Positions 1-21,015 of a stretch of DNA of 64,000 nucleotides are shown here, piece by piece. Each line of letters begins with the position of its first letter. Within the stretch, counting starts at the first letter, position 1. Made by a program: the position numbers and the translations under genes. Origin of the DNA: Labilithrix sp. (lineage in GTDB: Bacteria > Myxococcota_A > Polyangia > Polyangiales > Polyangiaceae). The notes beneath the pieces were generated by a model. It was not told the DNA's origin and searched no databases. It worked only from the letters and a program-made list of their open reading frames with translations. The stretch covers positions 59,089-123,088 of the forward strand of contig JAHBWF010000003.1 of NCBI GenBank assembly GCA_019637105.1, written 5' to 3'.

Positions 1-1137
1 CTCCAGGGCCTCGTGAAGGCGGGGTACAAGGAGACCATCAAGAACATCGCGCGCAAGGCCGGCTACAAGCCGGAGAGCCCGGCGTTCTTCGAGATCCTCG
101 GCTGGAAGCAGAAGCAGGCCGCCGGCGGCCACCGGCAGGTCGGTCTGTCCAACCTCACGCTGCAGAAGCGCGAGCGCTTCGACGGCCTGTCCGAGGCGGA
201 GATCTGCGAGGCGATCGTCACGCAGAAGCTCTCGCACAAGGACGTCGTCGGCCGGCTGCCGAAGGACGTGGGGCTCACGCCGGCCATCATGGTGGCGCTG
301 CTCCCCTCGCTCTCCGACCGTGACCTCCGCATGCTGACGCCCACGCTCGAGGAGCTGGGGCTCATGACCGAGCCCGAGATCCGCCGGCGCTGGGAGAAGG
401 CGATCGCCGAGGCCACCGACCAGCGCGCGCTCAACATCGCGAAGAACGTCCGGAGCAAGGAGCTCCGGACGAAGCTCGAAGAGGCGAGCGACAACGCCGC
501 GAAGAAGGCCGTGGCGGAGGCGGCGGCCGAGCGGCCCGTCGACGTCATGTTCCTCATCGACAAGTCCGGCTCGATGGAAGGCGCGATCGACAAGTCGAAG
601 GAGGCGCTGTCGCGCATCCTCGCGGGCTTCCCCGCGGAGCACGTGCACATCGCGAGCTTCGACACGACCGGGACGGTCCTCAAGCCCAAGGCGCCCACCC
701 GCGCGGCCGTGCAGCACATGCTCGGCGGCATCAAGGCGGGAGGCGGCACCGTCCACGCCGCGGCGCTCCGCGCCCTCCACCAGGCGGGCGTGCGCGTCGC
801 GGCGACGCACGCGCTGATCGTCATCGTCGTCGGCGACGAAGCCGGCGAGGACGGCGGACAGCTCGCGCGCGCGTTCAAGGACTACGGCTACGACGTCGCG
901 GCGATCGCGATGCTCGTGAACGTCTCGACCACGCGCGGAACGACCGTCCAGTCGTGCGCGCGCGCGCTCGGCGTGCCGTACAGCGAAGTGCAGATCGACC
1001 AGTTCGAGGACCCCTACCAGGTGCCTCGCGTTCTCCGCGCGCTGCTCGAAGCCCCGAAGCTGGGGCCCGGCGTCGCCGCGCAGAGCGGCTGGCTCGAGCG
1101 CGTCCTCGCGACGCCGATCCTCACGCTGCCTTCGTAG
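1..1137 (+). CDS. VWA-domain protein, 5' end beyond the window
   Basis: The reading frame is open through base 1, so the protein is probably longer than the 374 residues counted from the GTG at 13. The C-terminal half is a von Willebrand factor A domain with a complete metal-binding MIDAS: D183-x-S185-x-S187 (IDKSGSM), T246 in GGGT and D275 in VGDE. The preceding 170 residues are helical and charged. The order helical region then VWA recalls Ro60/TROVE-type RNA-binding proteins, but no diagnostic TROVE residue can be named. It is the first of five co-directional genes, 31 bases before the next, that include JAMM, ubiquitin-like and E1 proteins; VWA domains often act as adaptors in such complexes. 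The VWA call is firm; the role is inferred. Confidence 0.85.
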   Translation, partial: LQGLVKAGYKETIKNIARKAGYKPESPAFFEILGWKQKQAAGGHRQVGLSNLTLQKRERFDGLSEAEICEAIVTQKLSHKDVVGRLPKDVGLTPAIMVALLPSLSDRDLRMLTPTLEELGLMTEPEIRRRWEKAIAEATDQRALNIAKNVRSKELRTKLEEASDNAAKKAVAEAAAERPVDVMFLIDKSGSMEGAIDKSKEALSRILAGFPAEHVHIASFDTTGTVLKPKAPTRAAVQHMLGGIKAGGGTVHAAALRALHQAGVRVAATHALIVIVVGDEAGEDGGQLARAFKDYGYDVAAIAMLVNVSTTRGTTVQSCARALGVPYSEVQIDQFEDPYQVPRVLRALLEAPKLGPGVAAQSGWLERVLATPILTLPS

Positions 1138-1168
1138 ACCACCACCCCAACCCCGAGGGCTCCGGTTC

Positions 1169-2188
1169 ATGGACTACACGAAGTTCCTCGGGAAGAAGGA
1201 AGAGGCCGTCCTCGCGTACCTCGGGGGTCCCTTCGCCTACGGCAGGGACCGCCGGCTCCGCGTGGGCGAGCCTCGGCCTTCGCTCGGCTTCCATCGGTTC
1301 GAGATCGAAGGCCGCGCGGCCCGCGCGATCGGCCCCGCGGAGTCGCCCGACACGGGCGGCCTCCCGCGCGTGCGCGGGCATCACGTGCGCGGTTGGATCA
1401 CGTGCGCGAGCGGCGCGAGCCCGGGACGCGCCGCGAGCCCGCGTCACGGCCGCCGCGAGGGCGACCCCGCGGCGCGGTCGCGCGTCGAGATCGTCCGGCT
1501 CCTGCCGGACGAGCAGCCGGCGCCGTTTTCGATCGTCCGCGCGCGTCGCTGGCACTCGGGCGATCTCGTCTTCGAGTCGCTCGACTTCGACGGCGAGGTC
1601 GAGGAGGCCGCGCGCCTCCGGCTCGAGAAGCTCGAGCCCCTCGGCGAGATGAAGGGCGTCCCCGCCTCGCTCCGCCTGGCGTACGGCGTGGCGCTCACGA
1701 CGGCGATCGCCGCTCGGATGGGCGTCGCGCTCTCCGTTCGTGAAGCGGCCGCGGCCGGGCCGCGCGTCGCCGACGAGGGCGAGGACGCGGCGCGCGCGTT
1801 CGTCGGCGCCCTCGCCGCCCGGCGCGCCGAGGACGCGGAGCAGGCGCGCTCGCGCGCCCTCGCCCTCGATCGGGGCGCGCGCGAGCCCGTCGCCGCGCGC
1901 CGCCGCGGCGCCCCGACGCTCGACGACGCGCACCTCCGCGCCGCGCTCGCGCTCGACGGCGTCGACGCCCGGCTGCTCTCGTCGCGCCAGCTCGGCGGCG
2001 GCAACCTCGAGGTCGCGTGGGAGTTCATGGGAGAGCGCTTCATCAGCGTGATCGACGCCCTCACGCTCCAGGTCTTCGACTCGGGCGTCTGCCTCGCCGG
2101 CGCCGACGAGCTCGTCACGCTCGACAGCCTGCCCGGCGTCATCCGCGAGGCGATCCAGACCGACGCGCTCGTCATCACGCGTCGCTGA
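1169..2188 (+). CDS. Unknown 339-aa protein of the ubiquitin-like cassette
   Basis: Not assignable to a family by eye. The ATG at 1169 lacks a clear Shine-Dalgarno. The N-terminal 170 residues include beta-rich stretches; residues about 190-250 are Ala/Arg-rich and probably a linker. The last about 70 residues form the best-looking domain (NLEVAWEFMGERFISVIDAL, then SGVCLAG and TLDSLPGVIREAI). There are only two cysteines, C79 and C308. C308, followed by Leu and then a helix-like TLDSLPGVIREAI, loosely recalls the segment after the catalytic Cys of E2 enzymes, but there is no HPN motif. It sits between the VWA gene and the JAMM gene, where related bacterial cassettes often encode an E2-like or partner protein. 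That role is a hypothesis. Confidence 0.7.
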   Translation: MDYTKFLGKKEEAVLAYLGGPFAYGRDRRLRVGEPRPSLGFHRFEIEGRAARAIGPAESPDTGGLPRVRGHHVRGWITCASGASPGRAASPRHGRREGDPAARSRVEIVRLLPDEQPAPFSIVRARRWHSGDLVFESLDFDGEVEEAARLRLEKLEPLGEMKGVPASLRLAYGVALTTAIAARMGVALSVREAAAAGPRVADEGEDAARAFVGALAARRAEDAEQARSRALALDRGAREPVAARRRGAPTLDDAHLRAALALDGVDARLLSSRQLGGGNLEVAWEFMGERFISVIDALTLQVFDSGVCLAGADELVTLDSLPGVIREAIQTDALVITRR

Positions 2189-2318
2189 GGGCCGACCCCG
2201 GGGAGCGCCGCGTCGGGACGGCCGGCGCGACGATCGCGCGCGGTCCCCCTGGACAGCGCGCGTCCCGATGACGAGGTTCTCGCGACTGCGCGCTCGAGCG
2301 CGTCGCGCGGAGGCGACC

Positions 2319-2774
2319 ATGGGATCTCACCTGCGCGAAGTCTTCTTCCTCGTCGGCGAAGGCGACGTCGTCCTCTGGTCGGACGCGTCGGAGAGCCCGG
2401 TGCGCCTGCCCGACACGCGAGCGCGCTGGGAGGCGATCTGGTCGCGCCGCGAGCGGATCGTCGAGATCGCGCACTCGCATCCGATCGGCCCGATCGCGTT
2501 CTCGCGCGAGGACGAGACGACGATGCGCGCGCTCGTGACGGCGCTCGGTCGGCCGGTGCTCTTCTCGGTGGTCGCGCCGGACGGGATGATCCGCCGCGTC
2601 GAGCCGGTCGACGAGCCCGGCGCCGGTGAAGATCGGCGCGCTCGGCTCGTCGAAGACGAGCCCTGGTGGACGCGCCTCCTCCGGCTCGCGTCGGGGATGC
2701 AGGAGACGTCACGGACCACGGACCTCGCTCGCGCGGTGGCGGCGCCGAGCGAGATCGCAACGAAGGAGCAATGA
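2319..2774 (+). CDS. JAMM/JAB-family metalloprotease (Mov34/MPN-like)
   Basis: A 151-residue protein with the JAMM zinc motif H52-S-H54-P55-x6-S62-x2-D65 and an early Glu (E7) where the family places its catalytic acid. JAMM proteases remove ubiquitin-like proteins from targets or trim their C-terminal tails. The ATG at 2319 is preferred over an upstream start at 2268 because GGAGG lies five bases before it. The stop is nearly fused to the next gene: TGA at 2772-2774, with ATG codons at 2771 and 2777, indicating translational coupling. The next two genes encode the ubiquitin-like protein and the E1, the usual JAB partners in bacterial ubiquitin-like operons. The last about 45 residues look disordered. 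Confidence 0.88.
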   Translation: MGSHLREVFFLVGEGDVVLWSDASESPVRLPDTRARWEAIWSRRERIVEIAHSHPIGPIAFSREDETTMRALVTALGRPVLFSVVAPDGMIRRVEPVDEPGAGEDRRARLVEDEPWWTRLLRLASGMQETSRTTDLARAVAAPSEIATKEQ

Positions 2775-2776
2775 AC

Positions 2777-3025
2777 ATGGCAGTCCTCAACATCACCTAC
2801 AACGGTCTGTCCGCCGACTACCCGCTGGACGTCGACCGCGCGCTGAGCGACCGCGACGTCCGTCGCATCGCCGTCGAGGTCGTCCGCTCGGGCGGCCTGC
2901 GCGGCCTGGCCGCGGCGAACCTCGGCGATCGCGCGTTCGACGACTACGTCGTCGACCGGTTCCACACGCCGCAGGGCGAGCGTCGCATCTACCTGCGCCC
3001 GAAGGTCCCCTTCGGCTGCTCGTAA
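2777..3025 (+). CDS. Small ubiquitin-like (beta-grasp) protein, candidate modifier
   Basis: An 82-residue protein. The pattern fits a beta-grasp start: strand AVLNITYNG, turn, strand SADYPLDV, then helix SDRDVRRIAVEVVRSG, then later strands ending YLRPKVPFGCS. It resembles in size and layout the prokaryotic ubiquitin-like proteins of PRTRC-type cassettes (Prok_Ub), though the assignment is by pattern and context. AAGGAG at 2763-2768 is eight bases from the ATG at 2777, so that start is preferred to the ATG at 2771. The C-terminus is Gly-Cys-Ser rather than Gly-Gly, so maturation would need removal of two residues by the adjacent JAMM protease, or the tail works differently. It lies between JAMM and E1 genes. 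Confidence 0.72.
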   Translation: MAVLNITYNGLSADYPLDVDRALSDRDVRRIAVEVVRSGGLRGLAAANLGDRAFDDYVVDRFHTPQGERRIYLRPKVPFGCS

Positions 3026-3100
3026 CCACGAAGGCGTGGAGGGCGTACCTTCGCCCTCCCCCTTCCTCCTCCTCTCACCGTCGTCCCTCGAGGTGCCTTG

Positions 3101-3682
3101 ATGAAGCGTGTCGTCTTCTGTGGCGTGGGCGCGCTCGGGTCGAACGCGGTCGTCGCGTGCCGAAACCTCGACGCCGCGCTCGTCCTGATCGACTTCGACC
3201 GCGTCGAGTCGAAAAACTGCCTCTCGCAGGCCTTCGTCAAGCCGTCGGTCGGGAAGAACAAGGCCGACGCGTTGAAGCTCCAGCTTTCGAACTTCTGGGG
3301 CGTCAAGGCGGAGGCGTTCGGCGTCCGCGTCGACGAGTCCAACGTCGCGACGCTCTGCGGATCGGCGGACCTCGTCGTCGACGCGTTCGACAACGCGAAG
3401 AGCCGCCGGCTGCTCTCGGCCTGGGCGGAGAGCGCCGGCAAGCCGCTCGTCCACGCCGCGGTCTCGGCGGACGGGACGTTCGGCCTCGTCCGCTGGGACG
3501 CGCGCTTCGTCGCCGACGAGGAGCCCGCGGCGGGGGCGGCGACCTGCGAGGGCGGCGAGCACCTCCCGCTGCTCGCCGTCGTCGCCGCGACGCTCGCGCG
3601 CGCCGTGCAGGACTTCGTCGCGCGCGGCGTGCGTCGCGACGCCATGATCGCCCTCTCGGGCGTGACCACCACCTCGGAGTAG
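3101..3682 (+). CDS. E1/ThiF-like adenylating enzyme
   Basis: A 193-residue Rossmann-type E1 domain. It has the nucleotide loop G8-V-G-A-L-G-S14, the acidic strand end D31-F-D33 followed by N39 (DRVESKN), the GKNKA motif at 51-55 that contacts ATP, and D94-x-x-D97-N98. This family adenylates the C-terminus of a ubiquitin-like protein. C149, in a CEGG segment, is the obvious candidate for a thioester cysteine; no paired CxxC zinc motifs were seen, and the protein is shorter than ThiF or MoeB (about 250 residues). The ATG at 3101 is used rather than the TTG at 3098. It is the last gene of the cassette, 75 bases after the ubiquitin-like gene. Confidence 0.88.
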   Translation: MKRVVFCGVGALGSNAVVACRNLDAALVLIDFDRVESKNCLSQAFVKPSVGKNKADALKLQLSNFWGVKAEAFGVRVDESNVATLCGSADLVVDAFDNAKSRRLLSAWAESAGKPLVHAAVSADGTFGLVRWDARFVADEEPAAGAATCEGGEHLPLLAVVAATLARAVQDFVARGVRRDAMIALSGVTTTSE

Positions 3683-3821
3683 CGGGGCGCCCGGCCGCCC
3701 CGCCGCTTCGACGGCGGCGCGCGGCTCCGGTGTGGGACGGTCCCCTCCGCCTCCTCGCGCCGCCGCTCCTCCGGCCGACCTTTCGAGGCCGGTCCCCCGT
3801 CCCGTCGCCCCGCCCGAGGAG

Positions 3822-3870
3822 CCCCTAAAGAGACCCCTAAAGAGACCCCCTAAAGAGACCCCTAAAGAAA
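3822..3870. repeat. Four tandem copies of a 12-13 bp unit, CCCCTAAAGAGA
   Basis: Copies start at 3822, 3834, 3846 (one extra C) and 3859 (last copy ends AAA). They lie in the 295-base space between the E1 gene and the FHA-GGDEF gene, about 110 bases before the latter. The AT content is unusual for its surroundings. A weak open frame (3732-3944) runs through it but is Pro/Lys-rich and not convincing. Function unknown; a multi-site operator or a simple slippage product are both possible. Confidence 0.85.
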
Positions 3871-20266: not shown

Positions 20267-20283
20267 TCGCGACGCGCCTCGAA

Positions 20284-20301
20284 TGTGAGGCATCCCTCAT
20301 G
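20284..20301. promoter_or_regulatory. TetR operator, site 2, overlapping the tetR start codon
   Basis: TGTGAG-GCATCC-CTCATG matches the core of site 1 (CGTGAG-N6-CTCACG) with the same 6-base spacer. Its right half contains the ATG of the TetR gene (20299-20301). Binding here would block tetR expression, giving autoregulation together with control of the P450 from site 1. Confidence 0.75.
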
Positions 20302-21015
20302 TTTGTCAACCCGAAGCCCCGAAAGGCCGACAAAAAGCGCGCCTCGACGCCCCCGGAGGCGCACGCGGACCGCCGCGTCCCGACGCAGGAGCGGAGCCGC
20401 CAGCGCGTCGAGCGGATCCTCGACGCCGCCGCTCACGTCTTCGCGGACGCGGGGCACGAGGCCGCGACGATGGAGGCGATCGCCGCGCGCGCCGAGACGT
20501 CGATCGGCTCGATTTACCAGTTCTTTCCGAACAAGGCGGCCGTCTTCGACGCGCTCGTCCGGCGTCACCACGACGGGATCCGCGCCTTCTTCGACGGGCT
20601 CTTCGCCGGGCCGCTGCTCGAGGGCCCCTGGCAGACGCTCCTCGACGCCGGCATCGACGCCATCGCGGCGCTCCACGCGACCGACGCCGGGTTCCGCGCC
20701 GTCTGGAGCGGCCAGCACTTCACCAAGTCGATGCTCGACGAGGGCGAGGCGCTCAACCGCGAGCTCGCCGATCGCGTCGCCGTCGTCTTCGAGCACAAGC
20801 TCCCCGGGTTGCCCGCGGCCCGGCGCGCGTTCGTCGCGATGATGGTCGTCGAGCTCGTCAGCGCGATGCTCATCCTCTCGGCCCGGCGCCCCGAGGACGC
20901 CGACGCGGTGATGGCGGAGACCAAGGCCCTCCTGCGGCTGTACCTCTCGCCGTACGAGGGTGACGCCGCGAAGGCCTCCGGGAAGGGTCGCTCCAAGCTA
21001 AGATCACGCCGATGA
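20299..21015 (+). CDS. TetR-family transcriptional repressor
   Basis: A 238-residue TetR regulator. The helix-turn-helix is at about 37-82 (RILDAAAHVFADAGHEAATM, then IAARAETSIGSIYQFFPNKAAVFDAL). The rest is an all-helical ligand domain of the type ending TKALLRLYLSPY. The N-terminal 30 residues are Lys/Arg-rich. It is divergent from the P450 gene, and two GTGAG-N6-CTCA(C/T) palindromes occupy the shared space, one over its own ATG. It is therefore the likely repressor of both genes, relieved by a small, perhaps hydrophobic ligand related to the P450 substrate. Confidence 0.93.
   Translation: MFVNPKPRKADKKRASTPPEAHADRRVPTQERSRQRVERILDAAAHVFADAGHEAATMEAIAARAETSIGSIYQFFPNKAAVFDALVRRHHDGIRAFFDGLFAGPLLEGPWQTLLDAGIDAIAALHATDAGFRAVWSGQHFTKSMLDEGEALNRELADRVAVVFEHKLPGLPAARRAFVAMMVVELVSAMLILSARRPEDADAVMAETKALLRLYLSPYEGDAAKASGKGRSKLRSRR

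Follow-up and report, generated by a model that had tools for sequence, protein, structure and literature searches.

Some bacterial operons that combine E1, ubiquitin-like and JAB genes are defensive, as in Bil and CBASS, and in CBASS Cap2 the E1 is fused to an E2 domain. PRTRC clusters carry an E1 of the ThiF family TIGR03736 together with ubiquitin-like and JAB genes. The present analysis concerns a 64,000-nucleotide stretch of Labilithrix sp. (contig JAHBWF010000003.1), called the window below, whose positions 1-3682 hold five co-directional genes in the order VWA-U339-JAMM-UBL-E1. U339 is the name given to a 339-aa protein and Ubl denotes the 82-aa ubiquitin-like protein. The five genes form a genuine Ubl modification cassette that is conserved, has a distinctive set of proteins and is common to myxobacteria and large phages.

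The cassette differed from each described system. Its E1 reached 33.3 bits against TIGR03736, for which the cut-off is 144.75, and with E up to 1 no protein of the cassette matched another PRTRC model. Unlike Cap2, the E1 was stand-alone and comprised 193 aa. BilABCD likewise has separate Ubl, E1, E2 and JAMM genes, and its JAMM uncovers the Gly at the Ubl C-terminus. However, according to the accessible text of PMC11354881, the Bil Ubl has two domains, whereas a single beta-grasp domain of 82 aa was present here; the Bil E1 consists of an inactive and an active adenylation half plus a Cys domain, in contrast to the 193-aa E1; and the Bil E2 has a CEHH motif, whereas here a Cys domain lies behind OB-like folds and a VWA protein is added. 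Operon types 6a-6e (Iyer et al. 2006, PMC1779556) share the E1-like protein, the JAB and in some cases the Ubl, and some include E2-like proteins without the classical His; none is described there with a VWA or an OB and Cys protein, and the accessible main text does not mention vWA. A vWA protein is joined with E1, E2, Ubl and JAB in the FtsH ternary vWA-MoxR systems, but the MoxR and FtsH ATPases, RING E3, EAD1 fusions and caspase-like effectors given for them in the available part of PMC7159879 lie outside the conserved set here. Literature searches yielded no description of this arrangement, with limited coverage of subscription papers, and an earlier description is possible. The following features were assigned; coordinates are those of the window except where stated.

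1..1137, + strand: 3' part of the VWA gene, ORF open at the window start (Pfam VWA_2, E 2.6e-9)
L005:14945/14951-16726: full VWA gene on the parent contig of the window
1169..2188, + strand: U339, with two OB-like domains at the N-terminus (about aa 10-142), a helical middle and a C-terminal E2-like domain (about aa 250-335)
2090..2092, + strand: codon of U339 Cys308, the candidate Ubl-accepting cysteine (DSG-V-C-L motif, invariant Cys)
2319..2774, + strand: JAMM/JAB metalloprotease (Prok-JAB, E 2.2e-6; longest ORF from 2268)
2777..3025, + strand: Ubl, 82 aa, C-terminal end RIYLRPKVPFG-CS (AlphaFold2 fold and conserved C-terminus)
3014..3022, + strand: conserved Gly80 of the Ubl, followed by its variable tail of two residues (Cys-Ser), which is the predicted target of clipping (distribution of tail lengths over 61 rows; association with JAMM status)
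3101..3682, + strand: E1-like adenylating enzyme of the ThiF fold, 193 aa (ThiF, E 3.8e-20; Cys149 codon 3545-3547)

All five ORFs were present where the first-pass annotation had placed them. The cassette is not a chance arrangement, because Pfam Prok-JAB, ThiF and VWA_2 matched and orthologues of all five genes occur in the same order elsewhere. U339 and the Ubl had no family in Pfam, PADLOC or PHROGs. NCBIfam gave sub-cut-off ThiF/MoeB-type matches for the E1, weak VWA-type matches for the VWA protein, one chance-level match for the Ubl (E 0.06) and none for U339 and JAMM. Generic E1-E2 models of PADLOC matched the E1, and a weak JAB match was obtained. In PHROGs, the E1 matched two families of unknown function and the VWA part a family labelled 'RNA-binding protein' (E 2e-4), with nothing for U339, JAMM or Ubl. 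Compared with the relative L058, most differences lay in third codon positions in every gene, in JAMM barely so (22 vs 20); in U339 and JAMM, changed codons outnumbered silent ones.

The five genes co-occurred almost all-or-none in 194 related genomes. With an E-value limit of 1e-15, the E1 search gave 26 matches; four were distant, with 33-40 percent identity, and a close E1 was present in 22 genomes. These 22 held VWA in 21, Ubl in 20, U339 in 19 and JAMM in 18 cases. The other 172 genomes had no VWA, one U339 (G193, a genome with a distant E1), and one Ubl and one JAMM, both in G076 at a contig start. Some of the missing genes may be gaps because many assemblies are fragmented. A pattern-limited scan of species genomes yielded at least 78 named loci, of which 64 had myxobacterial-type titles, two were from Virgisporangium and two, distant ones, from cyanobacteria; the rest were scattered metagenome-assembled genomes (MAGs) and odd titles. 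The complete set was found on one strand in 37 of the 78 loci and in no other order. Partial sets were UBL-E1 (24), JAMM-UBL-E1 (6), sets without JAMM (3), E1 alone (3), VWA-UBL-E1 (2), U339-JAMM-UBL-E1 (1) and, in cyanobacteria, VWA-U339-E1 (2), and many partial loci were contig ends. When 19 genomes with an incomplete stretch were searched as a whole, VWA was found in 18, U339 in 18 and JAMM in all 19, not always adjacent. Inserts of 2.9-7.9 kb separated JAMM and UBL in 14 of the 37 complete loci, and in L065 an insert lay between UBL and E1; they were dropped as candidate system parts after the ORFs of two of them (L063, L065) looked unrelated. All five genes were present in a record titled Myxococcus xanthus AM003. 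The E1 of a record titled Comamonas sp. KCTC 72670 nested among Myxococcus E1s, and this record is probably mislabelled or contaminated.

The JAMM and Ubl genes are almost fused, as first described: the JAMM stop codon (2772-2774) is followed by the Ubl ATG at 2777, or overlapped by one at 2771. The HxHP-x6-SxxD motif of the JAMM was intact. Conservation started near the ATG at 2319, though the longest ORF begins at 2268. In the alignment H51, H53, S61 and D64 were invariant and at least 90 percent of members had a Glu upstream of them (alignment position E6), which corresponds to the JAMM/MPN+ pattern E...HxH(x7)SxxD; 54 of 55 viral copies had the motif. A search of PDB sequences with the JAMM profile gave nothing at E 0.1. 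The beta-grasp-like character of the 82-aa protein was borne out by an AlphaFold2 model (pLDDT 88) of the order strand-strand-helix-strand-strand, with a conserved C-terminal Gly. Structural matches of the Ubl included the small molybdopterin synthase subunit, and its profile found nothing below E 0.28 among PDB sequences.

The Ubl was conserved through RPKVPFG and then ran into a variable tail. R74, P75, P78, F79 and G80 were invariant in 61 aligned members, in which the tail comprised no residue in 7 rows, 1-2 residues in 41, 3-16 in 12 and 55 in one. A tail-less Ubl was found in 4 of 4 loci without an intact JAMM gene vs 3 of 58 loci with JAMM present (Fisher 6e-5). One of these losses is seen in L057, where the JAMM body is gone, a C-terminal remnant is kept and the Ubl has no tail. 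Because a tail-less Ubl accompanies the loss of JAMM, comparison of the loci indicates that the JAMM probably matures the Ubl by trimming its tail. Some viral-type Ubls (L130:6397-6798; L245, L248, L251, L254) extended about 45-60 residues past the conserved Gly, as if a second fused segment were there for release by the JAMM.

The E1 carried all motifs reported for it at the outset, G8-x-G10-A-x-G13-S14, D31-x-D33-R-V-E-x-K-N39 and GKNKA, and Cys149 was invariant in two family alignments, so that ATP-site motifs and a catalytic Cys were identified by sequence only. Its profile matched MoeB (best), TcdA, ThiF, Uba4, SAE2 and UBA5 in the PDB. In a variant locus (L052:6128-7174), a JAB gene lay directly 5' of a distant E1 of the VCDY type, flanked by patatin-like and acyl-CoA ligase-like genes named by eye.

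The first-pass annotation saw no recognisable E2. The C-terminal domain of U339 is a candidate E2, with homology that is suggestive only. In the structure model this domain had the order alpha-beta4-Cys-alpha with an invariant Cys (motif GxCL); the order of its elements, though only that, matches the helix, four-strand meander, Cys loop and helix of the UBC fold. The Cys was invariant in 41 of 41 aligned members and in 29 of 29 rows spanning both clades of the cassette (clade I, with the window and viral copies, and the divergent clade II described below), and its motif was present in all 55 viral U339 proteins. A Pfam scan of the 41 members gave scattered weak matches only. The Prok-E2_B profile (PF14461) had no match in 140 genomes, but the controls gave none either. 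The odds that U339 is an E2 of unusual type appear slightly better than even.

The VWA gene is cut by the window edge. On the parent contig (G000:C223) it starts about 640-645 bp upstream, which gives a protein of about 591-593 aa with an N-terminal region of about 380 aa, for which Pfam held no family, and a VWA domain with an intact MIDAS (DKSGS). D400, S402 and S404 were invariant in the family alignment. VWA proteins of clade I, with the viral ones, and clade II were akin over both parts in hhalign; the N-terminal parts alone gave Prob 91 and a score of 54.5 vs a shuffle maximum of 21.0. An N-terminal region followed by a C-terminal MIDAS VWA domain is also the layout of Ro60/TROVE proteins (PF05731). 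Further likenesses were a match to PHROG 850, 'RNA-binding protein', confined to the VWA region (E 2e-4), and tRNA-like RNAs near clade II copies. TROVE membership was rejected: PF05731 had no match in the genome of the window and none among 34 VWA family members at E up to 1. High hhalign values against a first picked TROVE set (clade II at Prob 94, clade I together with viruses at 69) were discarded with that set, which included non-TROVE rows; against four clean TROVE proteins, whole VWA proteins reached Prob 10-15. The N-terminal part of clade II scored 28.8 against the clean set, vs a maximum of 19.1 in 60 shuffles, and that of clade I scored 21.5, equalled by 3 of 60 shuffles. Kinship with TROVE is thus suggestive only for the clade II sequences, not for the clade of the window.

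Clade II comprised L053, L054 and L055 from another Myxococcota family and L133 from Anabaena. The Ubl was about 66 aa long, ended in RPEA[VL]YG and had no tail. It was accompanied by an E1 whose end is of the VCDY or VCDYA type and by VWA and OB/Cys-type proteins, the OB/Cys gene of L054 excepted. JAMM was not found in the clade II genomes with the clade I profile, and in L134 (Nostoc) the Ubl was not found in the stretch. In all four loci, Rfam placed tRNA or tRNA-like elements in the interval from the Ubl gene to the VWA gene (VWA start of L054 inferred), and ARAGORN found none in L053 and L055, two in L054 and two near the L133 genes. Matches to YrlA, a Y RNA-like family, beside the VWA genes (L055 35.1 bits, L054 33.0, L133 28.7; gathering score 69) were not accepted as specific, since similar scores (35.5 and 28.5 bits) came from an ordinary tRNA array of a phage; L053 had tRNA matches but no YrlA match. 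An L7/L12-type ribosomal protein gene lay just upstream of the cyanobacterial VWA genes (L133:5395-5775 by profile match; L134:622-1014 by eye). An extra gene was present between the VWA and OB/Cys genes in L053:6194-7162 and L055:8086-8880; the product of the latter belonged to no clear family. The region upstream of the VWA gene showed no tRNA-like element in the lineage of the window, and the window itself contained no tRNA. Just 3' of the E1 gene, the window showed short direct repeats of about 12-13 bp at 3807-3868 (CCCCTAAAGAGA).

Viral copies were numerous. The E1 profile found 17 loci in IMG/VR and a wider profile 67, of which 60 were distinct by E1; viral status rests on the IMG/VR assignment, and the contigs with a cassette reach 619 kb. 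The full cassette was present in the same order on one strand in 52 of the 60, VWA was missing from the stretch in three and fewer genes were found in five. One contig with E1 only (L198) had bacterial-looking neighbours. The partial genome of the Caudoviricetes virus Rctr197k (KX853510.1), with annotated head morphogenesis and terminase genes, contained the complete set according to profile matches, its members interspersed with other genes. Its annotation lists the E1 as ThiF-like, the VWA as a miscellaneous feature and JAMM and Ubl under hypothetical genes; no gene is annotated for U339 on the strand that encodes it. All 41 annotated tRNAs of the record lie at 172.8-190.1 kb (L254 4789-22097), flanking the cassette (176.8-186.2 kb) on both sides. 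Two CRISPR arrays are also annotated (L258:11803-13317, 20281-20535).

ARAGORN detected 799 tRNAs in 1,167 kb around the 60 viral loci (0.68 per kb, vs 0.21 per kb in the bacterial loci L057-L123), with at least five tRNAs in 38 loci and none in six. Up to 43 tRNAs occurred in one 20-kb IMG/VR stretch (loci L187-L253), and one tRNA-Sec match was found in L223. Viral loci had a tRNA upstream of VWA, at up to about 500 bp, in 21 of 47 cases and bacterial loci in 4 of 33; for the side downstream of E1 the counts were 18 of 59 and 5 of 71. These numbers show no clear preference for the VWA side. An elongation-factor-like GTPase and a full-length GroEL-like protein were encoded within a few kb of the cassette (L207:15047-16213, L199:17052-18707; PHROGs). 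In the viral locus L193, JAMM matched a PHROGs family labelled tail protein, and VWA, U339 and Ubl had no PHROGs family. Among INPHARED phages the window Ubl had no match and the window E1 two distant plasmid matches only. Neither a 2021 jumbo-phage survey (PMC7824862) nor a 2026 review (PMC13282480) describes a Ubl, JAB or ubiquitin system in its accessible text. For the E1 tree, seven divergent MAG loci and five clade II rows were set apart beforehand. The 69 bacterial rows formed one group (SH-aLRT 97), surrounded by viral rows, and six changes were needed. By their E1 sequences, most bacterial copies look like one lineage within viral diversity, consistent with one capture from phages. For most of the divergent MAG loci the nearest rows were viral, and such loci may be viral contigs.

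Taken together, we consider it rather probable that the cassette is a self-contained ubiquitin-like modification system. The Ubl would be made with a short C-terminal tail that the JAMM clips after Gly80; this step is strongly inferred and the best supported of the scheme. The conserved residues suggest that the E1 would then adenylate Gly80 and form a thioester on Cys149. The Ubl would be handed to Cys308 of U339, an E2-type carrier with OB-fold adaptor domains if the slightly favoured assignment is right. The VWA protein, with its Ro60-like layout, might be a scaffold, a target selector or itself modified. The frequent siting of viral cassettes in or beside tRNA arrays hints at a part in translation or tRNA biology. 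Both the RNA link and an E2 role for U339 are put forward as hypotheses. In the widest form of the scheme, an E2 with OB folds and a VWA scaffold resembling Ro60 would tag translation or tRNA proteins, and the cassette, borne by giant phages in tRNA arrays, would have been captured once by a Myxococcota ancestor and become chromosomal. This RNA-wired form is possible, though doubtful.

Several observations weigh against the scheme. Of the loci that have JAMM, 3 of 58 from bacteria and 9 of 49 from viruses encoded a tail-less Ubl; the JAMM may therefore also have another role. The viral L251 Ubl had a tail of 48 residues with no JAMM in a stretch that starts just before the Ubl. Six of 56 viral Ubls deviated from the RP..PFG-type pattern, and that of L244 (RPKTRFA) lacked the Gly. 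The phylogeny-aware test of tail and JAMM was low-powered, with one contrast on well-supported branches and five on all. G212 had JAMM-UBL-E1 but neither VWA nor U339. For U339, hhalign aligned the C-terminal domain with four E2s, Cys on Cys, at a score of 23.0, above all 150 column shuffles (maximum 17.5), but over 21 columns only and with a probability of 9-12 percent. No UBC E2 was among the Foldseek or VIA matches listed for U339, and the PDB profile search gave no E2. The HPN motif was absent, strand 4 running straight into D-x-G-x-C-L; bacterial E2-like proteins without the classical His are known, as the available text of PMC1779556 reports.

The uncertain E2 assignment leaves room for tagging in which E1 and Ubl act directly and U339 and VWA are substrates or receptors. 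Archaeal SAMPs are attached in this way, without an E2. However, the invariance of the U339 Cys throughout the two clades, with its motif present in all 55 viral copies, exceeds what would be expected of a mere substrate; we regard E2-less tagging as unlikely. The JAMM could also uncap the Ubl of a sulfur-carrier system, in which the product of the E1 would be a thiocarboxylate and the Cys308 protein would use the sulfur or pass it on. The short E1, with MoeB as its best PDB profile match, would suit this role, as would the small molybdopterin synthase subunit among the Ubl matches. A close precedent, as far as the accessible text of PMC6006322 describes it, is a sulfur carrier with a one- or two-residue C-terminal cap cut by the paired JAMM-type protease QbsD, but its end is GG and its neighbours are biosynthetic, whereas the Ubl here ends in a single Gly (PFG), and VWA and OB/Cys proteins accompany it in bacteria and viruses. 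In the loci whose ORFs were inspected by eye, with no profile search, neither biosynthetic genes nor any for a rhodanese or cysteine desulfurase were noted. The sulfur-carrier role has a low probability in our estimate.

The first-pass annotation had also raised the prospect of a new modification or defence system. The modification part is supported by the conserved cassette, the Ubl fold and the link between JAMM and tail; the defence role is unsupported. The NCBIfam model for the 6A-MBL anti-phage cap2_3 protein matched the E1 below its cut-off, and the generic PADLOC E1-E2 models matched it as well, but no system-specific PADLOC or NCBIfam match was obtained. Furthermore, the Ubl occurred in 74 of 96 genomes of the family of G205 (titled Pyxidicoccus; presumably Myxococcaceae), with one match each, and viruses themselves carry the same cassette. 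A dedicated anti-phage defence system is quite improbable.

A ubiquitin-like modification cassette of this kind constitutes a Ubl system distinct from others, which tailed phages possess and which tractable myxobacteria apparently have as a single copy. Its candidate E2 has an unusual layout, and the joint loss of JAMM and tail amounts to a natural experiment that predicts the role of the protease. Should the RNA-wired form hold, a bacterial Ubl pathway would be paired with a tRNA-linked ribonucleoprotein. If the presence of the cassette in phages is real, giant phages come with a ubiquitin-like tagging cassette of their own, and the role of the tag in infection becomes directly testable.

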